Shown here: positions 1-11,561 of the stretch, one piece after another
Numbering within the stretch: position 1 is the first letter of the stretch
Layout: every line of letters starts with the position of its first letter
Assembly (NCBI GenBank): GCA_016927905.1
Contig: JAFGLW010000012.1
Span: 1 to 64,000, forward strand
Length of the DNA: 64,000 bases
Direction: 5' to 3'
Source of the DNA: a candidate division CSSED10-310 bacterium
GTDB taxonomy: Bacteria > CSSED10-310 > JAFGJC01
Notes under the pieces: generated by a model
The model's database searches: none
What the model saw: only the letters and a program-made list of their open reading frames with translations
Told to the model about the DNA's origin: nothing
Program-made: the position numbers and the translations under genes

Positions 1-183
1 GAAACGCCCACCGCCGCCCCCGCAACCGAAACGCCCACCATCGCGCCCCCAACCGAAACCCCGACTCCCGGCGGTCCGACATCCACTCCCGCACCGATCC
101 CCGCCACCGGTCCGGCCGGCCTGGGACTCCTTCTCCTGGGACTGGGCGCACTCCTGGGCACGCATTCGATCCGGAGGCGTTAA
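1..183 (+). CDS. C-terminal end of a P/T-rich surface protein (partial)
   Basis: Frame 1 is open from the window edge to the TAA at 181-183, giving 60 residues. It starts with a repetitive Thr/Pro/Ala/Glu linker (repeats of the type ETPTxAP). It then has an I-P-A-T-G-P motif, a hydrophobic glycine/leucine stretch ending GLGALLG, and a basic R-R-R end. The same tripartite tail closes the next gene (744-4688), so both products are probably anchored or processed in the same way. The body of the protein lies outside the window and its function is unknown. The tail resembles LPxTG and IPTL-CTERM type signals; which enzyme acts on it cannot be read here. Confidence 0.8.
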   Translation, partial: ETPTAAPATETPTIAPPTETPTPGGPTSTPAPIPATGPAGLGLLLLGLGALLGTHSIRRR

Positions 184-743: not shown

Positions 744-3700
744 ATGAGGAAATTTCTTTTATTCGCATTGGCCACATTGATGGTCACATCCGCAGGGTTT
801 GCTCAGACCTGCACAGTCGGTTCGACCACCGGAATAACCGACAACCGACTGCCGTTTTACCAGTTCTACACCTATTCGGAAGGCCAGTATTGTATTCCGG
901 CTTCCGAAATGGCGCTGTGCTTCCCGACCGGCGGGACGTTCTCGGAGATCGGCTGGCACTGGCGGAGCGGCGCGGCGGTGAGTTCGTCGTACACTTCCAT
1001 CGACATCTACCTGAAAAACATCCCGGATCCCTGTCCAAACCTCTGCACCGCACCCGATCCGAACCCCGGGACCCTGGTTTACAGCGGTCCCTGGAGCTGT
1101 ACTGCAGCCATCGGATGGAAGATGATCGCGATGAGCACGCCGTTCACCTACAACCCCGGCGACTGCCTGCTGGTGACCGTCTGCGACACGCTCGGTCCGG
1201 ATTACAACTACGGCAGCTCGGTCTACTGGTCAACGAATTCGCTGACCGGCTCGGGATTCATGCGCTATTCCGACTCCGTTGATCCGGTCGACTGCGACCT
1301 GACGACTGCGCTGTCATACTCAAGCTGCATTAACGAGTGGGTTTCCACCGGGTTCACGGATGCTTCCGTTCCCACGCCCACTCCGACCACTCCGCCCCCG
1401 GGCTGCGATCACCAGATCTGCCTGATCGACTCCTTCGGCGACGGATGGAACGGCGGAACGGTGGCGGTCACCGTCAACGGCAACCCGGTTCCGGGCAGCC
1501 CGTTCACGCTGGCTTCCGGCACGGGCCCGACCTGCTACACCTTCACTGCCGACACGGGCGATGCCATCTTCTGCGACTACACGCCGGGCAGCTGGAGCTA
1601 TGAGAACGAATATTATGTTCTCGACGGCTCCGGCCTCGAGCTGGGTCGGACCGGATCCGGCGGAACGGTCCCGGCCGACCTGACCCTGACCGGCAACTGC
1701 CCCTCGGGCATCGTCATCTCACCCGATCCCTCGGTCGTGAACTCCAGCGGGTGCGGCAATCAGACGCTGACCCACACCCTCCAGGTCGGCAACTTCACCG
1801 GCCAGAACGACACGTTCAACCTGTCCATCACGGGCAACACCTGGACCACCACTGTCACCAGCACCAACCCGGTCGCCATCAACGACAACCAGTTTGCGAC
1901 GGTGACCGTGGACGTGGTCGTTCCGGTCCTGACCGCCCCCGGGTCGGATACCTGCACGTTCAACGTGGCGGCCGTCACCGGCACCGACACCGCGACCTCC
2001 ACCCTCACCACCAACTACCTCCACATGGGCAGCGTGACCACACTGTTCGCCCAGAACAACGGCCAGTCGGGCAACATGTTCGACATCGACGTGGCCTATC
2101 CCACCACCATCACCGCGTTCGATATCAATGTTGATGCCATAGCGGTCAACATCGAAATCTACACCAAGAGCGGAACGTGCGTCGGTTTCGAAACCAATGC
2201 CAGCGCCTGGACCCTGCTGTATACCGTGACCGGTGTCGCGGGTGCGGGGCCGGACAATCCCACGTTCATCGATCTGTCCTCCATCGGCGGCTGGCTGGTC
2301 ACCGGCGGGACGTACGGCGTGTACATCACCTGTACGAACGGAACGTACATGAATTACACGACCGGCGGCCCGTGGACCTATTCGAGCGGTCCCCTGACCG
2401 TCACCACGCATTCCGGTAACGCCTACCCGTTCAGTTCCTTCTTCGCACCGCGGGCCTGGAACGGAACCGTCTACTACTCCTGCGATACCGTCCAGGGTGT
2501 TTATCTGACTCCGGCGATCTCGTTCGGAATGGATGTCCCCGGATCAACGGTTATCCACAACTTCCTGGTGCAGAACTTCAGCGGCGTGAGCGAGTTGTTC
2601 GATCTGAGCATCGGCGGCAGCCCGGCCTGGACCACCACGATCAACGGCCTGGCACCTCCGATCACCATCGGACCCATTCCCGACGGCGGAAACCAGACCT
2701 TCACGGTGGAAGTTGTGATTCCCGGTACTGCAACATATCCGGATACCGACACCTGTACCGTGACGGCCACGGGTCAGACGTCCGCCTACAGCGACACGTC
2801 CGACATCACCACCCAGGCGTTCCCGTCCCTCTTCTACGCTTACGGCCTGGATGTTTATCCGGGTACTGGCGATCTGAAAGGGTTCTTCGATCTGGGGGTT
2901 CCCGGCAACTGGTTCGACATCGGAGCGGGCGGCATTGATTTCCATCCCGCCGGCGACTTCCTGGGCAATGATTTCTCCCAGATCTACATGGTGGGATATT
3001 ATGACAATGTCCTGAAGTCTGTGAATACGGTTTCCGGCGTGGCGACCACCATCGGCGCTTGTGCTCCGACAAACGGTCAGTGGACCGGATTCTCCGGCGC
3101 TGCGGACGGCTCGGCCATGTACGCCATGAGCAGCTCCTGCGGCACGTCATCCACGCTGCACACCGTCGATGTCACCACCGGAGCGGTCACGGCAATCGGC
3201 ACCACAACCACCGCACCCTGCATCATCGACATTGCGGTCTCAGCCGACGGCTCGGCCATCTACGGCGTGGATCTGGTCGATGACAATCTGTACTCGATCG
3301 ATCCCACGACCGGCGCCGCCACCTCAATCGGCTCCACCGGCGCTGCTGCCAACTACGCGCAGGGTATGGATTTCGACTATGCGACGGGCGAGCTTTACTG
3401 GGCCGCCTACACCGCCCAGGGCGAACTCCGCACCCTCGACATCGGATCCGGCATGTCAACGCTGGTGGGTGCATTCCCGAGCGGCGCGGAAGTCGACTGC
3501 CTCAGTGTGGCTCAGGAAGCGGGCGCTGCTTACATCGCCCTGATCCCGGCCATGTCCAATCAGTCCGGTCCCGCAGGCTCGACGCTGACCCACACGTTGT
3601 CTCTGGAGAACCACACCGGTGCTCAGGACACCTTTGACCTGGCGATTTCCGGTTACACCTGGACAACGGTCATCACCAGCACCAATCCGGTGACGATCGA

Positions 3701-4688
3701 TGACGGCGCTGCGGCTGCCGTGACGGTCAACGTGACCATTCCGGCCGGTGCGGCCACTCTGGATTCGGATTCCTGTACGCTGACCGCCACCGGGCAGGTT
3801 TCAGGATTGTCCGATTCCTCGACGCTTAACACCACGGCCATGCCGCCGACGACGGAAGCTTACGGTATTGAACTTGTGAACGGCGAGCTGGAATACTGGC
3901 CCGACCTGCATCAGTTCGACACTTGGACCGTCATCGGAACCGGCGTCAGCGCATACTCCTTCTTCGCCGGCGACTTCCTCGGCACAGACCACACCCAGTT
4001 GTACTGCATCACTTACGACACCAACACGCTGTACAGCGTCGATGTGGCCACCAGCGTCGCAACCATGATCGGTTCGGTTGGCGCACCCACCGGAGGCGCT
4101 TCCTGGTCCGGCATGACCAGCACCTATGACGGCTCGGTGATGTATGCGATTTGCACAAACATTACGCAGTCCTATCTGTACACCGTCGATCTCACCACTC
4201 CGAGTGTCACGCTGGTCGGCCAGATCACGAACGCCGCCGGCGCCATCGACGTTGCCATCAACTCTCTCGGCGAAATGTACGTGCACGACATCGTGGCCGA
4301 TTCCATCTACAGCGTCGACACTGCAACCGGTGCCGGCACGCTGGTCGGAACCACCGGATTCTCGGCCAACTACGCGCAGGGCATGGACTGCGACCAGGGA
4401 TGCGATGCATTCTACCTGTCCGCATTCAATGCCGGCAACTACTTCACCGAACTCCGGCTGGTCAATACGACGACCGGTGCCTGCCCGCTGTTGTCCGCGA
4501 TGGGATACTTCCTGGAAGTCGACTCGTTCGGCATCCTGCCTGCTTCGATCCCGCCGACTCCGACTCCGACTCCGAGTGGCCCGACGCCCACTCCGGGCGA
4601 CATCCCGACCACCGGACCGGTTGGCCTGGGTATCCTGCTGCTGGGTCTGGGCGCCCTGCTGGGCATCAGCTCCTTCCGCAGGAAATAA
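744..4688 (+). CDS. Large secreted P/T-rich protein with duplicated Ig-like and propeller-like units and IPxTG-type tail
   Basis: 1314 residues. Residues 1-20 form a signal peptide (basic start, hydrophobic core, A-G-F-A-Q cleavage region). Residues about 221-320 hold a D-S-F-G-D-G-W-N-G-G module like those in secreted proteins of Bacteroidetes. Ig-like units with a THTL...N(F/H)TG-QDTF(N/D)L pattern occur near 325-425, 590-690 and 935-1030. The last two are each followed by a repeat-rich, propeller-like unit (about 695-925 and 1040-1265) with recurring V-D-x-x-T-G-x-x-T-x-I-G and a shared NYAQGMD. The end is a P/T linker, I-P-T-T-G-P, a hydrophobic segment and F-R-R-K. The start at 744 has GGGAGG 7 bases upstream. 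It is probably an abundant surface or adhesion-type protein; the ligand is unknown. Its C-ending codons look strongly biased, which would fit high expression. Confidence 0.9.
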   Translation: MRKFLLFALATLMVTSAGFAQTCTVGSTTGITDNRLPFYQFYTYSEGQYCIPASEMALCFPTGGTFSEIGWHWRSGAAVSSSYTSIDIYLKNIPDPCPNLCTAPDPNPGTLVYSGPWSCTAAIGWKMIAMSTPFTYNPGDCLLVTVCDTLGPDYNYGSSVYWSTNSLTGSGFMRYSDSVDPVDCDLTTALSYSSCINEWVSTGFTDASVPTPTPTTPPPGCDHQICLIDSFGDGWNGGTVAVTVNGNPVPGSPFTLASGTGPTCYTFTADTGDAIFCDYTPGSWSYENEYYVLDGSGLELGRTGSGGTVPADLTLTGNCPSGIVISPDPSVVNSSGCGNQTLTHTLQVGNFTGQNDTFNLSITGNTWTTTVTSTNPVAINDNQFATVTVDVVVPVLTAPGSDTCTFNVAAVTGTDTATSTLTTNYLHMGSVTTLFAQNNGQSGNMFDIDVAYPTTITAFDINVDAIAVNIEIYTKSGTCVGFETNASAWTLLYTVTGVAGAGPDNPTFIDLSSIGGWLVTGGTYGVYITCTNGTYMNYTTGGPWTYSSGPLTVTTHSGNAYPFSSFFAPRAWNGTVYYSCDTVQGVYLTPAISFGMDVPGSTVIHNFLVQNFSGVSELFDLSIGGSPAWTTTINGLAPPITIGPIPDGGNQTFTVEVVIPGTATYPDTDTCTVTATGQTSAYSDTSDITTQAFPSLFYAYGLDVYPGTGDLKGFFDLGVPGNWFDIGAGGIDFHPAGDFLGNDFSQIYMVGYYDNVLKSVNTVSGVATTIGACAPTNGQWTGFSGAADGSAMYAMSSSCGTSSTLHTVDVTTGAVTAIGTTTTAPCIIDIAVSADGSAIYGVDLVDDNLYSIDPTTGAATSIGSTGAAANYAQGMDFDYATGELYWAAYTAQGELRTLDIGSGMSTLVGAFPSGAEVDCLSVAQEAGAAYIALIPAMSNQSGPAGSTLTHTLSLENHTGAQDTFDLAISGYTWTTVITSTNPVTIDDGAAAAVTVNVTIPAGAATLDSDSCTLTATGQVSGLSDSSTLNTTAMPPTTEAYGIELVNGELEYWPDLHQFDTWTVIGTGVSAYSFFAGDFLGTDHTQLYCITYDTNTLYSVDVATSVATMIGSVGAPTGGASWSGMTSTYDGSVMYAICTNITQSYLYTVDLTTPSVTLVGQITNAAGAIDVAINSLGEMYVHDIVADSIYSVDTATGAGTLVGTTGFSANYAQGMDCDQGCDAFYLSAFNAGNYFTELRLVNTTTGACPLLSAMGYFLEVDSFGILPASIPPTPTPTPSGPTPTPGDIPTTGPVGLGILLLGLGALLGISSFRRK

Positions 4689-4765: not shown

Positions 4766-5845
4766 TTAATACCATTCGAAATGCTCCACATCCAGGTTGC
4801 TGAGCATTTCGGTCAGGTCCGGCGAGATCATGGCGGACAGGAACGAGGCATACCCGGATGACTGGACATCCGTCCAGGGAAAATCCAGGATAACGTAAGT
4901 GGCGGGTGTCGTCGATGTGGGATTCAACCCGGTTGAATAATAGGAAATCCCCTCGCTCCATTCCGGCCAGAACCAGTACATTCCATATACTTCCAGTATG
5001 ACAAACAGGTTCATGTCCAGAACGGTTTCCGTCCGGTTCCACAACAGATCCCACAGCGTGAACTGCTCACCCCCGTAGAAAACCTCGTGACTCAATACCA
5101 GGTCGACCTCATACTCGAAAGCCGGAGTGGGCGAAGCGGACGGTGTTGCCGTTTCGGTGGGCGGGACCGGAACCGTGGGGGTGGCGGTCGAGTGCTGGGG
5201 AGTATCCGTCATTCCCGGCGTCATCGTGGGCGCTGCCGGGGTATCGGTCGGCGCTGCCGGAGTGGTGGTGGGAGGCATCGGCGTCATGGTGACGGGCGCC
5301 GTCGGGGTGGTGCTGGGCGGGGTTGTCGGGGTCGGCAGCGGTGTCTCCGTACCCGGCGCTGTCGGCGTCGGGGTGGGCGAAACCCCGATGGTAAATTCGA
5401 ACGGGTTTCCCTGGGCGACGGGTTCATCCCCGGTGGTGAAGGAATGGTTGTCCTCCCCATAGACATAAGTTGTCAGATACTCCGGACCCCTGGCTTCAAG
5501 GTAGTATTCAACATATCCGACAGACGGGACCGTGAAAGATCCCACCCAGTAATCCGCCTCCTCGATGGTCGCGAAAAACACCATGGGGATCGACAGCCAT
5601 GCGCCCCCGTCAACCCGGTAATGCAGGTCGCCGGCATCCATGGCGCCCACGGGCTGGACGCCGAGATAGAAATCGACAGGCAATGATCCGCCGGGATACA
5701 GCGGATCCCGCATGGTCGGACCGGTGGGCGGCACGAGTTGAGCGGGAACATGAACCGCATCGATCAGGTCCTGGGCGTCAACGGGCACCAAATCTCCCAG
5801 GACAGGCAGAAACAGCAGGCCGATTATCCAGATTTTACCGCGCAT
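4766..5845 (-). CDS. Secreted protein: N-terminal beta-rich domain, P/T linker, conserved C-terminal domain
   Basis: 359 residues from the ATG at 5845, which has AAGGAGAG just upstream; an in-frame ATG six codons earlier has no such site. Signal peptide about 1-24 (ends V-D-A-Q). Residues about 45-153 form a beta-rich module (HYRVDGGAW, YYLEARG) that looks like a carbohydrate- or protein-binding fold, but I cannot name it. A Thr/Pro linker covers 156-241. Residues 243-359 align with the C-terminus of the gingipain-like protease at 50600-54367: G-(E/D)-x-F-x-L-xxx-L-x-N, then D-x-(N/D)-x-(F/Y)-(V/I)-(I/L)-L, then W-(F/C)-W-P-x-W, and an aromatic E-W-Y / E-Y-R end. The gene stands alone and is convergent with the 744 gene. 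Confidence 0.8.
   Translation of the reverse strand: MRGKIWIIGLLFLPVLGDLVPVDAQDLIDAVHVPAQLVPPTGPTMRDPLYPGGSLPVDFYLGVQPVGAMDAGDLHYRVDGGAWLSIPMVFFATIEEADYWVGSFTVPSVGYVEYYLEARGPEYLTTYVYGEDNHSFTTGDEPVAQGNPFEFTIGVSPTPTPTAPGTETPLPTPTTPPSTTPTAPVTMTPMPPTTTPAAPTDTPAAPTMTPGMTDTPQHSTATPTVPVPPTETATPSASPTPAFEYEVDLVLSHEVFYGGEQFTLWDLLWNRTETVLDMNLFVILEVYGMYWFWPEWSEGISYYSTGLNPTSTTPATYVILDFPWTDVQSSGYASFLSAMISPDLTEMLSNLDVEHFEWY
4769..5119 (-). other. Conserved C-terminal domain, copy 1
   Basis: This encodes residues 243-359 of the secreted protein above. It shares the WFWPEW-type motif, spacing and aromatic C-terminal end with copy 2 at 50603-50950, although the rest of the two proteins is unrelated. It sits directly after a P/T linker in both, as expected for a sorting, anchoring or binding module. 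I do not recognise it as a named domain. Confidence 0.65.
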
Positions 5846-6181
5846 GAAATCTCTCCTTTTCAACCCTTCTTATACCAGAACCGATCAGGGGCAACACGTC
5901 CATTCTTCCCCAAATTCCCTTGAGCAATTATCATACCACGGTCGTTTCCAGGCGATTCCCGGCCGATTCACGAAGATCCGTCTTATGAACGCAGGCAATC
6001 CATATTGTTTTTCATTGCATCTTCATATCAACATCTTGTGTGTATCCGAATGGTATCCATCCCGAAATGGACATGAAATACCGGTTGTTCATCCGGACCG
6101 AAACCCAATATCAGGTCATTCCGGGGATTCAGGATGACGCCGGCATGATTACATTCTGTGTAATCCCCTTTTCTCGCGGGG
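5846..6181. other. Intergenic region, no gene seen
   Basis: The first ~20 bases hold the ribosome binding site and leader of the leftward gene. The remainder is non-coding in all frames as far as I can judge, apart from the perfect palindrome at 6147-6165. Confidence 0.5.
6147..6165. repeat. Perfect 7-bp inverted repeat GATTACA-5-TGTAATC
   Basis: GATTACA and TGTAATC flank a 5-base spacer, 17 bp downstream of the leftward regulator gene's stop. It could be a weak transcription end signal or a regulator site. There is no T-run after it on either strand. Confidence 0.35.
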
Positions 6182-9100
6182 TCAGTTGAATCCGTGTTTT
6201 TTCAGGTAATAGGACAGGATTCTGGGTGTGATGCCCAGGATTCCGGCGGCTTCCTTTTTGACACCGTTTGCCTGTTCCAGCGCTTTCGACACGAGGTGTT
6301 TTTCGATTCGTTCCATATTCGATTTCAGGTTCATCCCGCTGATCAGCGCGTCGACCGCCGGTTCCGCCCCGCCGGAACGATCCGCTGCGCCGCCGATTTC
6401 CGCCGGAAGCGCTTCAAGGGAAATCTGATTTCCTGTTTCCAGAATGGTGGCTCTCTGGATGGCATTCTCCAGTTCCCGGACGTTCCCGGGCCAGGAATAT
6501 TCCACCATGGCGGCCATGGCCTCCCGGTTGAAATCATCGAACTTGCGTTTGATCTCCCGGCTGTATTGTTCAAGAAAATGACGGGCCAGCGGCAGAATGT
6601 CCTCCTTCCGCTGCCTGAGGGGCGGCAGGTCGATATGGATCACGTTCAGCCGGTAGTACAGGTCTTCCCTGAATGTGCCGTCCCGAATCCTTTTTTTCAG
6701 ATCCTGATTGGTTGCGGAGATGATCCGGACATCGACTTTCCGGGGCGTTCTCCCGCCGATGGGTGTAACCTCCCGTTCCTGGAGGACCCTGAGAATTTTA
6801 GCCTGTGTGGCGGGATTCATGTCGGCGATTTCATCCAGGAACAGGGTTCCCCTGTCGGCTTTCTGGACCAACCCGATCCGGGCATTCACGCCGGTTGCCA
6901 CACCCTTCTCGATCCCGAAAAGTTCGGCTTCGAGCAGGTTTTCGGGCAGGGCGGCGCAGTTGATTCCGATGAAGGAGCATTGTTTTCGGGGGCTGTTGAA
7001 ATGAATGGTTTTCGCCACGATTTCTTTCCCGGTACCGGTATCGCCGCTGATGAGAACGGAGGCGTTCGATGCCGCCACCCGGCCGGCGATCCCGATGACC
7101 TTGTCCATGGCGCTACTCCGCCCGATCAGCATTCCCATCCGGTAGCGTTTACCCAATTCTTCTTTCAGGCGGAGGTTTTCCTCGTTGAGAGCCAGTCGGG
7201 TGGCTTCCAGGGCTTCACGGTTCTTGACGTTTTCCAGAGCCACCGAAGCCAGTTCCGCCACGATTTCCACCAGCAGTCTGTCGGTGAAGCTGAACAATCC
7301 TTGTTCCAGTGTGTTGTCCAGGTAGATCAATCCCTTGACCTGATCCGACGGCTGGTTACCGGGAATGGGGACACATAAAATGGATCGCAGCCCCAGGATC
7401 TGGATGCTGCGCCGTTCGCGGAACGCGGTATCCGCGCCCACATCGCCGCTCAAATAGGTCCGTTTCGTTTCCACGACATGATTGATGATCGTCCGGGAAG
7501 TCTCGAACTCCGGCTCTGAAATGTCCTCCTGCCGTATGTTCCGGCTGATACTGAAATGAAGATCTCCTTCGGGTCCCCGGGTCATCAGGAATCCTCTTTC
7601 TCCGCCGGTCGCTTCCACAACCTGGTCCAGCACGGATGTCAGCAGGCGGTTCAAATCCGTGGCGGTGAAGAATTCTCTGGTGCTGTGCAGCAGAAACTGG
7701 ATTGGTGCCGAATCCGACGTTTTCATCTTCTTTGTTCCCTCCTGGGGGATTGACCCGGTTTTTTCTGTTTCCGTTTGACCGGGCGCAGGGCTCAGCAGCC
7801 GGATTGCGCTGTCGATCCGCTCGGCTGCCGGACGCATTTTGAACCGCTTTGCCAGGGATTCCGCCTTCCGGTAGAGGTCCAGGGATTTTTCCGGGGAATC
7901 GACGGAAGCGGCGATTGTGCTCAGAGCGAACACCGACACCGGCGAATCTTTGAAAATCGAGGACCGGACGATATGGCCCGCAAGCCGGGCGCCCATGTCG
8001 CCCAGCGGAGATCGGACGGTGGGAAGATCGACCCGGAAGAACAGGTGGGGAATGGCGCTGTGGTCATCGATATCCTGCATCAATGCCTGAAGTTTCCCGG
8101 CTGCCTCCATCTGTCCGGCGGCATCCTTCATCCGGACCGACAACTCAACCAGGCCTCTCAGGACACGAAGCATCCCGCCGGTGATCCCCAGCGGATCCAG
8201 GATCTGCCTGGAACGCTCGAAAAGCTTTGCCGCTTCAGCGAGATTCCCGGCATCCAGCCGGACAAACCCCAGCTCAACCAGGACCCTGCCTTCCCGGTGC
8301 CGCCGGTTGAACGAGCGGTTCAGTTTACCGGCAGCCCGGAGATATCGCACGCCAGAAGAAGTGTTTCCCGTCAGGATGTTCACTTTCGCCAGAAGATCAT
8401 AAGCTTCCGCCGCCAGCAAGGGGTCCGGGATTTCCCGTGCAATGGCCCGAACCGATTCCCCGAAGGTCTTCGCCTGTTTCAACTGTCCCTGATTCAGCCG
8501 TGTTTTCCCCATCGAAACCAGGCAGTCCGCTTCCCCCCGTTTATCTCCCTGGTTTCGATAGATCTCCAACGCCCGCTGGTATTCCTGTTCCGCCCGGCTG
8601 ATATCTCCGACGATTTCACATGCCACCGCCAGTTTTTTCCGGCCGTCGGCCACGGTTTTTGGAAAGCCGATCCGGTCCAGGATTTCCAGCGCCTTGTCCA
8701 GTTCCCGGACCGCTTTCCACGGTTCGCCCTTTTCGATCAGCGCGCCCGCCAGGTTCACCCGTGTGATATTTTCAATCATGAAATGCCGGGCGTTTTCCGC
8801 TATTTTCATGGCCTGCAAAAACAGCTGTTCCGCCTGACCGATGCGTCCCTGCTCCATCAGTGTCCTGCCGATGCTCATCAGGCAGGCTGCGCTGTGTTCG
8901 ACCTGACCGCTGTCCTGAAAAATCCGCAGCGCTTCCTCGTTGATTTCCCTGGCCTGGGGAAACCGCCCGGTTTCATGGTAAATGTCACCCATGAGCTGCA
9001 GGCTGCGCGCCACACTCATGGGTGAATTCAGCCGGTTGAAAATTTCCCGTGCCCTGACGGCCTCCTCCAGCGCCGTGTCATAGTCCCCCAGCGCCAGATT

Positions 9101-11509
9101 GCATACTCCCGCTCCCAGGCGGCACCGGGCCTCCAGCGTGAGGTTGCCGTTTTGCACGCACAACGCCGCCGCCTGGTTGAACCGGTCCAGCGCCGGTCCG
9201 GTTTTGCCGGTCGAATAGAGGATCCCCGCCAAACCGAACAAAGCCTCCATCTGAAGATCGATCACGCCGGTCCGGCCCGCGGCATCGTTCAGTTTCCGGT
9301 ATGCGTCCTGAGCCTCCTGAAGGTTCCCCAGCGCCCGTTGTGCAATCCCCATGTGCCGCAGCACGCCCAGAACCGCCGGCTCCGTGTCCTGCATCCTGAT
9401 CCGCAGCGCATCTTTTGCCAGTTCGGTCACCGCAGCATACTGGGCATGTTCCTGCAACCGCTCGATCGCCTTCAGATAATACGGCAATGCCGTTTCGGGG
9501 TGATACCCGCGGGACAGATGCCGGGCGATTTCCGACTGATCCGGCGCTGCATGGGATATCAGATATTCTGCAACCGTATCATGCAGGTCGCGCCGGCGCC
9601 GGGCCGGCATCCGATTGTATATGAGTTCCAGAAAAGCCCAGTGTCGAACCGTCAATTCACTCCTGAACCGGCGCAACAGGCCGCTCTTTCCCAATTCGTC
9701 CAGAACATCCAGAAACCGCTGGGGATTCATGCCGGCAACGCCGCAAACCGGGGAGATCTCCCGTATGGGATCCGACACGGCCAGCGCTTCCATCACGGTC
9801 AAAGCTTCGTGCGACAGATTTCTCAACCGCGCCAGCATATTGGATCTGTAACTGCCCGCCCGGTACCGCCACTTTTTTGGCGCTAAATGCCATCGATTCT
9901 CCCGGTAGGCGAGCGCGCCGCTTTGGAACGCATTCATCACGAGTTCCTGGGCAAGCCCGGGATTGCCTCCGGATCTCTTGATAATCCTGTCCAGTAAGGG
10001 TTCCGGAAGTTCCATGGTTCCCAACATAGACCGGACGAGCGCAGCCATGTGATCGACAGGCAATCCATCCAACCGGATGGTCTGCCCGGATGACCGGATC
10101 TCCGATATCCACTCGGCTGTTTCCGAAGCTTCCGTTTTCGCGGCCTCGTCCATCGACATCACCACTGCGATACGTTTCAGGCCGCTCAATGCGGAACGGA
10201 AAAACCGTATTCTGGACGCCGACATCCGATCCACATCATCAATCCAGATCAACACCGGGCGCATTTCGGCCAGATTGCCGATCAACCGACCGAACGCCTT
10301 CGGCGGCGTGCCGATTTCCGCGCCGGGATCCTGGAACGATTCCCATCCCGGAAACGCCGAAAGTGATCGACCGACCCCTTCATTCAATCTTTTTGCATCC
10401 TCCGGTGTCATCCGGCCCCGATATTGTTCCATTCTGCCGAGTACCGGCTGGAGTTCCACATCCAAGGGAAGGCCGTGCCCCGCACCAGCGAATACCGGCA
10501 GGACAGCCACGCCTTCCCACCCTTTCAAAAGCTCAAACTCCTCCAGCAACCGGCTCTTGCCGATCCCGGCCTCCCCCTTCAGAAAACAGACCTTCCGGCC
10601 TGAACCGTCTTCCGGCGCAAGAATATCACCCAGCCGCTTCAATTCGTCACCGCGCCCCATGAAAGCCGGTCGAAACAGTTCCGCCGGAGCTTCCCAGTCG
10701 GGCACCTTCCCGGACCGCTCACAATCCGGCTTTTTCTCGGTCAGGACCGACCAGATCTCCCTGGCGGACGGCAACCGGTCGGCGGGATCTTTTTCCAGCA
10801 GCCACAGGATCACCCGCTCAAGCGATGATTCCTGCTTAATCAGCATCAGGGACCGGGGCCGCTCCTTGACCTGTTTCAAAAGAAGCTCATAAAACGTCCG
10901 GCCTTCAAACGGCAGGATTCCAGACACCGCTTCATACAATACGACACCCAGCGAATACAGGTCCGAACGGATATCCGGAACGGCACCCCTGCATTGCTCC
11001 GGTGACGCATACTGGACCGTCCCGGCGAAAACCTTTCCCTCCGATCCGGAATGCGGGCCGATACGGGACAGGCCGAAATCGGTTATTTTTACCTTGCCTG
11101 ACCGGTCGACCAGGATATTCTGCGGTTTGATATCGCCATGAACCACTCCCCGCCCGTGAAGATAATCCATCGCCTGCAGAACCTGGGGAATGATGTTCCA
11201 GAGCACACGACTGCGCCGCTCGGAACCGGGACACCCGCTCTCCTCGAGACAAGTCCGCAAATGCACGCCATCAACCAGCTCCATGACCAGATAACTCTTC
11301 TCCCGATCGATGAACCAATCGTACAGCCGGACAATATTGGGATGCCTTAACCGCGCCAGAGCCTGAACTTCAAGCGAAACAGACGCCGCCGCATGAATCT
11401 CCTTGATCGCAACCGGGTTCCCGGCATCATTCCGACAGGCATATACAACCCCGCCGCCTCCGGTTCCCAGGATTTTCTCAACGTGATATTTCCCTGCAAT
11501 GACGTTCAC
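6182..11509 (-). CDS. Giant regulator: Ser/Thr kinase, signalling ATPase, TPR, GAF, sigma-54-type AAA+ and Fis helix-turn-helix
   Basis: About 1775 residues. Kinase (about 7-260): glycine loop GTGGGG, V-A-I-K lysine, H-G-D-I-K-P-Q-N in place of the usual HRD, and D-F-G. Signalling ATPase (about 285-700): Walker A GEAGIGKS. TPR-like helical repeats (about 700-1160). GAF (about 1290-1415). AAA+ of the sigma-54 activator family (about 1465-1690): Walker A GDTGTGKE. A Fis-type helix-turn-helix closes the protein. The loop that should read GAFTGA reads GVATGV, so sigma-54 contact is doubtful. I chose GTG at 11509 because AGGAAGTGG precedes it and a TTGACA-17-TAATGT promoter overlaps the more upstream ATG (11542), which has no ribosome binding site. 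It probably couples a signal to transcription; neither signal nor target can be read. Confidence 0.88.
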   Translation of the reverse strand: MNVIAGKYHVEKILGTGGGGVVYACRNDAGNPVAIKEIHAAASVSLEVQALARLRHPNIVRLYDWFIDREKSYLVMELVDGVHLRTCLEESGCPGSERRSRVLWNIIPQVLQAMDYLHGRGVVHGDIKPQNILVDRSGKVKITDFGLSRIGPHSGSEGKVFAGTVQYASPEQCRGAVPDIRSDLYSLGVVLYEAVSGILPFEGRTFYELLLKQVKERPRSLMLIKQESSLERVILWLLEKDPADRLPSAREIWSVLTEKKPDCERSGKVPDWEAPAELFRPAFMGRGDELKRLGDILAPEDGSGRKVCFLKGEAGIGKSRLLEEFELLKGWEGVAVLPVFAGAGHGLPLDVELQPVLGRMEQYRGRMTPEDAKRLNEGVGRSLSAFPGWESFQDPGAEIGTPPKAFGRLIGNLAEMRPVLIWIDDVDRMSASRIRFFRSALSGLKRIAVVMSMDEAAKTEASETAEWISEIRSSGQTIRLDGLPVDHMAALVRSMLGTMELPEPLLDRIIKRSGGNPGLAQELVMNAFQSGALAYRENRWHLAPKKWRYRAGSYRSNMLARLRNLSHEALTVMEALAVSDPIREISPVCGVAGMNPQRFLDVLDELGKSGLLRRFRSELTVRHWAFLELIYNRMPARRRRDLHDTVAEYLISHAAPDQSEIARHLSRGYHPETALPYYLKAIERLQEHAQYAAVTELAKDALRIRMQDTEPAVLGVLRHMGIAQRALGNLQEAQDAYRKLNDAAGRTGVIDLQMEALFGLAGILYSTGKTGPALDRFNQAAALCVQNGNLTLEARCRLGAGVCNLALGDYDTALEEAVRAREIFNRLNSPMSVARSLQLMGDIYHETGRFPQAREINEEALRIFQDSGQVEHSAACLMSIGRTLMEQGRIGQAEQLFLQAMKIAENARHFMIENITRVNLAGALIEKGEPWKAVRELDKALEILDRIGFPKTVADGRKKLAVACEIVGDISRAEQEYQRALEIYRNQGDKRGEADCLVSMGKTRLNQGQLKQAKTFGESVRAIAREIPDPLLAAEAYDLLAKVNILTGNTSSGVRYLRAAGKLNRSFNRRHREGRVLVELGFVRLDAGNLAEAAKLFERSRQILDPLGITGGMLRVLRGLVELSVRMKDAAGQMEAAGKLQALMQDIDDHSAIPHLFFRVDLPTVRSPLGDMGARLAGHIVRSSIFKDSPVSVFALSTIAASVDSPEKSLDLYRKAESLAKRFKMRPAAERIDSAIRLLSPAPGQTETEKTGSIPQEGTKKMKTSDSAPIQFLLHSTREFFTATDLNRLLTSVLDQVVEATGGERGFLMTRGPEGDLHFSISRNIRQEDISEPEFETSRTIINHVVETKRTYLSGDVGADTAFRERRSIQILGLRSILCVPIPGNQPSDQVKGLIYLDNTLEQGLFSFTDRLLVEIVAELASVALENVKNREALEATRLALNEENLRLKEELGKRYRMGMLIGRSSAMDKVIGIAGRVAASNASVLISGDTGTGKEIVAKTIHFNSPRKQCSFIGINCAALPENLLEAELFGIEKGVATGVNARIGLVQKADRGTLFLDEIADMNPATQAKILRVLQEREVTPIGGRTPRKVDVRIISATNQDLKKRIRDGTFREDLYYRLNVIHIDLPPLRQRKEDILPLARHFLEQYSREIKRKFDDFNREAMAAMVEYSWPGNVRELENAIQRATILETGNQISLEALPAEIGGAADRSGGAEPAVDALISGMNLKSNMERIEKHLVSKALEQANGVKKEAAGILGITPRILSYYLKKHGFN

Positions 11510-11532
11510 ATATTCCACTTCCTGAAACCCGA

Positions 11533-11561
11533 ACATTACCATATATGTAACCGGTTGTCAA
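11533..11561 (-). promoter_or_regulatory. Sigma-70-type promoter of the giant kinase regulator
   Basis: On the minus strand, TTGACA (11556-11561) and TAATGT (11533-11538) are separated by exactly 17 bp. The expected transcript start falls just before the AGGAAGTGG and GTG at 11509. This supports the shorter start for the gene. Confidence 0.55.

Follow-up and report, generated by a model that had tools for sequence, protein, structure and literature searches.

What kind of signal closes two neighbouring secreted-type proteins of CSSED10-310, and which enzyme would read it? The question arises at the left end of the window, by which we mean the whole stretch of 64,000 nucleotides analysed here. 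Its first base is also base 1 of contig C20, part of an assembly (G000; 31 contigs, 3.12 Mb, 86.5% complete) assigned to the rare phylum CSSED10-310. A first-pass annotation had described both proteins, which end at positions 183 and 4688, as closing with I-P-(A/T)-T-G-P, a hydrophobic Gly/Leu segment and basic final residues, and these elements are seen in the sequence (Table 1). It had also placed them in a Gram-negative-type organism, in agreement with three Omp85 matches in the genome, which indicate a diderm envelope. As readers of the tail it had named a sortase as first option and, by layout, an IPTL-CTERM type of system.

The two tails of the window

The tails are PIPATGPAGLGLLLLGLGALLGTHSIRRR (94-180, stop to 183) and DIPTTGPVGLGILLLGLGALLGISSFRRK (4599-4685, stop to 4688). 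The first protein is incomplete because the window starts at the first base of its contig. The second contains DUF4394, DUF6923 and FixG_C (Ig-like) stretches, all above the Pfam cut-offs.

Table 1. Positions of the tail-bearing proteins, their parts and two neighbouring frames in the window
Feature	Position	Strand	Basis or remark
Tail-1 protein, C-terminal fragment, Pro/Thr-rich linker then tail	1..183	+	open at window left edge; ends ...PAPIPATGPAGLGLLLLGLGALLGTHSIRRR
IPATGPAG motif of tail 1	97..120	+	sequence
Hydrophobic part of tail 1 with its basic end, IRRR	118..180	+	sequence
Tail-2 protein, secreted-type, 1314 aa, open frame	744..4688	+	translation; ends ...PTPTPGDIPTTGPVGLGILLLGLGALLGISSFRRK
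Signal-peptide-like N-terminal segment of the 1314-aa protein, MRKFLLFALATLMVTSAGFAQ	744..806	+	heuristic; no predicted cleavage site
Pro/Thr-rich linker ahead of tail 2	4551..4598	+	sequence
IPTTGPVG motif of tail 2	4602..4625	+	sequence, profile
Hydrophobic segment (Gly/Leu) in tail 2, GLGILLLGLGALLGIS	4623..4670	+	sequence
Basic end RRK of tail 2	4677..4685	+	sequence
Secreted-looking protein that has a long run rich in Pro and Thr but no sorting tail; gene convergent to the tail gene	4766-5863	-	ends VEHFEWY
1786-aa frame, Ser/Thr kinase-like with AAA, TPR, GAF and sigma-54 activator regions	6182-11542	-	by eye

Two tail proteins of this genome are cut at contig ends, the one at position 1 of the window and another at the start of G000:C15 (L023). 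Repetitive Pro/Thr linkers may have caused the assembly to break at these two ends.

Distribution of the tail

A DNA pattern for IPxTGPxG gave 10 matches in the 3.12 Mb genome and 0 with the reversed control. After translation, five of the 10 were C-terminal tails and the other five lay in short frames or in the wrong context. With a profile of the five tails, the same genome yielded seven matches at E <= 1, namely those five, a clear one (1.3e-7) and a weak one (0.066). Further tails, for which the first-pass annotation had proposed to look, were also found in 4/4 other genomes of the order (G001-G004): at E <= 1e-5 there were 20 matches (6, 2, 8 and 4), all independent of the training set. 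The records of the order include JAFGJC01, JAFGEQ01, PWNJ01 and JAFGMN01. Seventeen genomes were scanned in this way, and at E <= 1e-5 none of the 12 outside the order gave a match; these were G005-G007, which represent three other families of the phylum (JAFGSJ01, JAJRTK01 and JACPHN01; the sister genomes below), and nine genomes of other phyla.

A wider profile, trained on 34 tails, was run over 386 genomes. It gave 67 matches at E <= 0.01, 60 of them from the five genomes of the order and the remaining seven from as many other genomes. The 39 matches at E <= 1e-5 were all in the five order genomes, a count to be read with the 34 training tails in mind. Five of the seven outside matches were membrane segments without the motif. 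The remaining two were a VPALGPIG tail in G005, a member of the same phylum, and a lone VPTTGPIG C-terminal tail in a different lineage (L148, G103:C461:4494-4550, minus strand).

For the description of the tail we used a list of 61, made up of the 60 order-genome matches of the wider profile (E <= 0.01) and the own-genome match of the five-tail profile with an E value of 0.066. Three entries are doubtful (L077, L079 and L178, the last without an IP motif). Six order-genome rows that the wider profile did not recover (L075, L082, L083, L089, L090 and L092) are outside the list, and some of them look tail-like; the order-genome rows of the five-tail profile at E >= 0.29 are mostly outside it as well. 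L077 and L079 (in G002 and G004) are proteins of ~100 aa in which VPATGFAGAGLLL or VPATGFTGAGLLL is followed by a second hydrophobic stretch, with 49 residues to the end, unlike the other tails.

Anatomy of the tail and its carrier proteins

Sixty of the 61 tails could be aligned on the Pro residue (Pro in 60). Position 3 is Ala in 47 of them, position 4 Thr in 48, position 5 Gly in 47, position 6 Pro in 41 and position 8 Gly in 54. The class is nevertheless loose, because the strict form [IVLF]P[AT]TGPxG occurs in only 29/61. The tail lies at most 35 residues from the C-terminus in 58/61, Lys or Arg is found near the end in 58/61, and a Pro/Thr-rich run precedes the tail in 42/61. By a home-made, lenient heuristic, a signal-peptide-like start was present in 51 of the 55 complete frames (those with an upstream stop) versus 11 of 28 control frames, the controls being the large frames of the window with the 1314-aa tail protein among them.

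The 55 bodies of tailed proteins fell into 31 clusters (largest, 16) and have little in common beyond the tail. A Pfam scan of ten of the 61 proteins found a papain-like protease, a trypsin-like protease with MAM and Cleaved_Adhesin domains, and GEVED, LTD, Laminin_G_3 and Ig-like domains; two of the ten had no match. One tail sits on an 88-aa frame without export start (L052, 1327-1590, G000:C6) whose end resembles a larger protein in G004 (L102), and this frame may be a gene remnant.

Dozens of exported proteins that are otherwise unrelated share the tail within one order of CSSED10-310. Motif, hydrophobic helix and basic C-terminus recur on several unrelated exported proteins, as in tripartite C-terminal sorting signals, and this part of the first-pass annotation is borne out. 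No NCBIfam model covers the tail: at E <= 0.0006, one of 34 tails matched IPTL_CTERM and one an NPXTG model.

An exosortase encoded elsewhere in the genome

The window contains no processing enzyme, as had been noted, and the likely enzyme is encoded on another contig. This candidate is the single PF09721 exosortase of the genome (G000:C28:358650-359207, minus strand; 33.1 bits, cut-off 25.7). Its gene has no linkage to the tail genes of the window. Its TIGR04178 score (49.4 bits, cut-off 23) places it in the exosortase/archaeosortase superfamily. The first-pass annotation had set a lack of more tails, or of any candidate enzyme, as refuting outcomes; neither was seen, and both checks speak for a genuine system. 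An orthologue was present in 8/8 phylum genomes examined, with identities to the own enzyme of 59-69% for order members and 46-47% for those of the three remaining families. C86, G88, N124, R127 and H146 are invariant in the alignment of all eight; the enzyme thus has the CxG, NxxR and His motifs described for exosortases (PMC1569441, excerpt). The HxxxG of EpsH reads HxxxW in the orthologues of the phylum.

Among NCBIfam models, exosortase H (XrtH, TIGR04177) fits the own enzyme best, with 79.6 bits under a cut-off of 86, followed by archaeosortase B (72.0, cut-off 150) and XrtX (69.4, cut-off 170); the Comamonas XrtH scores 236.5 bits on the XrtH model. The five order members score 64.0-80.2 on XrtH, and all of them miss the cut-offs of both XrtH and archaeosortase B. 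Two sister enzymes pass it (G006, 89.9; G007, 87.6), and that of G005 scores 79.6. In three of the eight orthologues (G002, G004 and G005) archaeosortase B outscores XrtH. The order enzymes form one group (99/97) in a tree of 27 rows, in which several long branches meet and the deeper joins are unsure. A PDB fold search with an AlphaFold2 model of the enzyme (mean pLDDT 83.7) gave 0 matches at E <= 0.001 and is silent on function. G006 encodes a second, divergent exosortase (L021, G006:C517), and the gene that follows it gives a weak match of its own to the XrtH model (24.5 bits).

Downstream lies a membrane-protein gene; with the ATG at residue 25 of the longest frame as its start, it begins two bases past the exosortase stop. 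Similar genes lie downstream in six of the eight phylum loci (own, G001, G002, G003, G005 and G006); none was seen in G007, and in G004 the contig ends before the position. The cut-off of the model for exosortase H-associated membrane proteins (XrtH_assoc, NF041730, 35 bits) was missed in 6/6 phylum members scanned (own, 10.7; best, 20.8 in G005). Weak matches were obtained for the own protein (E 0.31), G001 (0.34) and G005 (2.5e-4), and none for G002, G003 and G006. A profile-profile comparison with partners beside related enzymes of other phyla reached a probability of 93.7; the comparison side consisted of six rows, of which three were scanned, L130 and L133 lying over the XrtH_assoc cut-off and L138 not (21.9 bits).

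Relation to IPTL-CTERM and other known systems

The cut-off of IPTL-CTERM (TIGR04174, 20.5 bits) was missed by both window tails (13.8 for the 60-aa fragment and 19.0 for tail 2 alone; the full 1314-aa protein was not matched), and one order tail, in G002, passes it with 23.2 bits. With hhalign, the tail profile aligned from its first position with an IPTL-type profile (probability 81), two of whose eight rows came from the order genome G002 itself. The resemblance to IPTL-CTERM that had been remarked on from the layout is in keeping with this alignment.

Sister genomes carry IPTL-CTERM tails above the cut-off, VPTLSGWA and VPTLQPYA in G005 and VPTMNEWG in G007. G006 has the exosortase and a recognised tail of neither type. 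Intermediate forms were also found: IPATNQWG (G002), LPAVGGWG (G004), VPALGPIG (G005) and IPATGAW in G283, a genome of another phylum that has a related exosortase. Outside the phylum, IPTL-CTERM over cut-off occurred in 9/15 genomes with a related exosortase versus 0/18 without, the latter being the first ones on the list and not a random sample. The three outside genomes whose exosortases are closest, namely G158, G065 and G361, are among the 6/15 without an IPTL tail. Eleven columns of the enzyme alignment are fixed in the order and different in the sisters (5 versus 3 sequences), and seven of these (A87, G91, G119, Y121, I123, T125 and M128) lie near the catalytic Cys and Arg.

The IPTL-CTERM/exosortase H system shares with the one described here a tripartite tail that begins with [IV]P and has Gly at motif position 8, an enzyme of ~180 aa and a membrane partner gene after it, and enzymes related to ours co-occur with IPTL-CTERM. 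It differs in that the order tails have ATGPx or TTGPx in place of LSEW, and in that our tails, enzyme and partner all remain below the curated cut-offs. We therefore rejected plain IPTL-CTERM/XrtH membership and kept it as the closest kind. The VPXXXP-CTERM/archaeosortase B system (TIGR04143, TIGR04144) is archaeal. The letters VPxxxP would fit [IV]PATGP, and the archaeosortase B model is the second best on the own enzyme; however, the score is far under the cut-off, and VPxxxP_CTERM gave weak matches in 2/34 tails (best E 0.069). PEP-CTERM with EpsH-type enzymes is alike in the many-to-one relation of tails to enzyme, the signal peptide and the exosortase superfamily, but the order tails have no Pro-Glu-Pro (PEP_CTERM weak matches in 7/34 tails, best E 0.01) and the own enzyme is a short form of ~186 aa.

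Which enzyme would read the tail?

A true sortase would cut I-P-x-T-G between Thr and Gly and attach the protein to peptidoglycan. Pentapeptide (I-P-A-T-G), helix and basic end are as in LPXTG proteins, the LPXTG_anchor model gave weak matches in 11/34 tails (best E 0.01), and dedicated sortases of Gram-negative bacteria have been described (PMC3237569, excerpt). However, PF04203 gave no match in the five genomes with the tail, the own one included, in a search that detects sortases in G006 and G007; these two sortase-bearing genomes lack the tail at E <= 0.01. Completeness of the assemblies is 60-90%, and a gap at this gene in all five is unlikely. We thus rejected membership in a sortase system, the first option of the first-pass annotation, and regard a sortase as the reader of these tails as very improbable. 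The Cys, His and Arg residues in which sortases and exosortases are alike belong to non-homologous enzymes (PMC1569441, excerpt).

Two other readings have a small chance of being right, of about equal size and slightly above that of a sortase. An intramembrane protease of the rhomboid or CPBP type, as for GlyGly-CTERM and MYXO-CTERM, might cut within the Gly-rich membrane segment. The hydrophobic segment is indeed rich in Gly, MYXO-CTERM matched 12/34 tails weakly (best E 0.0074), and 7/8 phylum genomes have matches to the rhombosortase model under its cut-off. The cut-off itself (84 bits) was reached in 0/8, so that a rhombosortase was rejected; generic rhomboids are possible. MYXO-CTERM, which has an invariant Cys (PMC11980579, excerpt), was rejected because only 1/61 tails has Cys among its first 12 residues. 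Alternatively, the tail might be a mere C-terminal membrane anchor that is not processed, with the motif forming a turn before the helix. The unlinked position of the exosortase gene would suit such an anchor, and cleavage of the tail is something that we infer. Against it, the motif positions Pro, Gly 8, Thr 4 and Gly 5 are kept more strictly than an anchor needs (see the counts above), and the motif is held across the 31 body clusters and nearly only in one order.

We consider it likely, from the sequence comparisons, that an exosortase system of a divergent exosortase H/IPTL-CTERM lineage uses the tails as its C-terminal sorting signals, and that the signal has drifted to [IV]P[AT]TGPxG. 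Observations that speak against it include the VPTTGPIG tail of G103, a genome in which no related exosortase reached E <= 1e-5, the missed cut-offs of enzyme and partner, the archaeosortase B scores near or above those of XrtH, the HxxxW in place of the HxxxG of EpsH, the presence of the enzyme in G006 without a recognised tail of either type, and the rhomboid-family matches in 7/8 phylum genomes. The co-distribution of the tail and the exosortase group is not made up of independent cases, since all evidence for the pairing comes from one clade and perhaps from a single event.

Proposed course and significance

According to this exosortase model, the tailed proteins would leave the cytoplasm by the Sec pathway and be retained in the inner membrane by the hydrophobic segment and basic end, with [IV]P[AT]TGPxG facing the periplasm. 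The one XrtH-like exosortase, with Cys86, Arg127 and His146 as expected catalytic residues, would cut at or near the motif and either release the protein or hand it to another carrier. The end point would be on or outside the cell surface. We infer the enzyme-tail pairing, the cut site, the attachment and the final location alike. PEP-CTERM/EpsH serves as the analogue for the course (PMC1569441, excerpt). Archaeosortase A has been proposed to link its substrates to lipid via a Cys intermediate (PMC7157517, excerpt), and loss of cyanoexosortase B affects motility and biofilm formation (PMC12188702, excerpt). IPTL-CTERM has been reported on an S-layer protein of Methylomirabilis lanthanidiphila (PMC8671808, excerpt), which agrees with a surface end point.

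More tentatively, and with somewhat less than an even chance in our judgement, the exosortase of one phylum may have switched its signal from VPTLxxWG to the sortase-like I-P-(A/T)-T-G-P-x-G. A non-homologous Cys enzyme would then read a near-LPXTG pentapeptide, with the Thr-Gly bond perhaps scissile. The evidence for this apparent switch of tail type among families with a common enzyme comes from one lineage and a few sister tails. What seems to be new here is an exosortase-sorting tail with sortase-like wording and a tail type that changes between families with one enzyme. In the literature on sorting signals, exosortases, IPTL-CTERM and CSSED10-310, none of the matches listed names this tail, and the words sortase, exosortase and outer membrane are absent from PMC8248873, which covers five CSSED10-310 MAGs.

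Since classical tails accompany the same enzyme in two sister families, the order and the sister pair offer a natural comparison for residues that choose the signal. If our reading is true, the differences between order and sisters beside the Cys and Arg would make exosortase specificity testable. It would also caution against annotating diderm I-P-x-T-G tails as sortase substrates, and dozens of exported proteins of an uncultured phylum would be clients of one processing enzyme.
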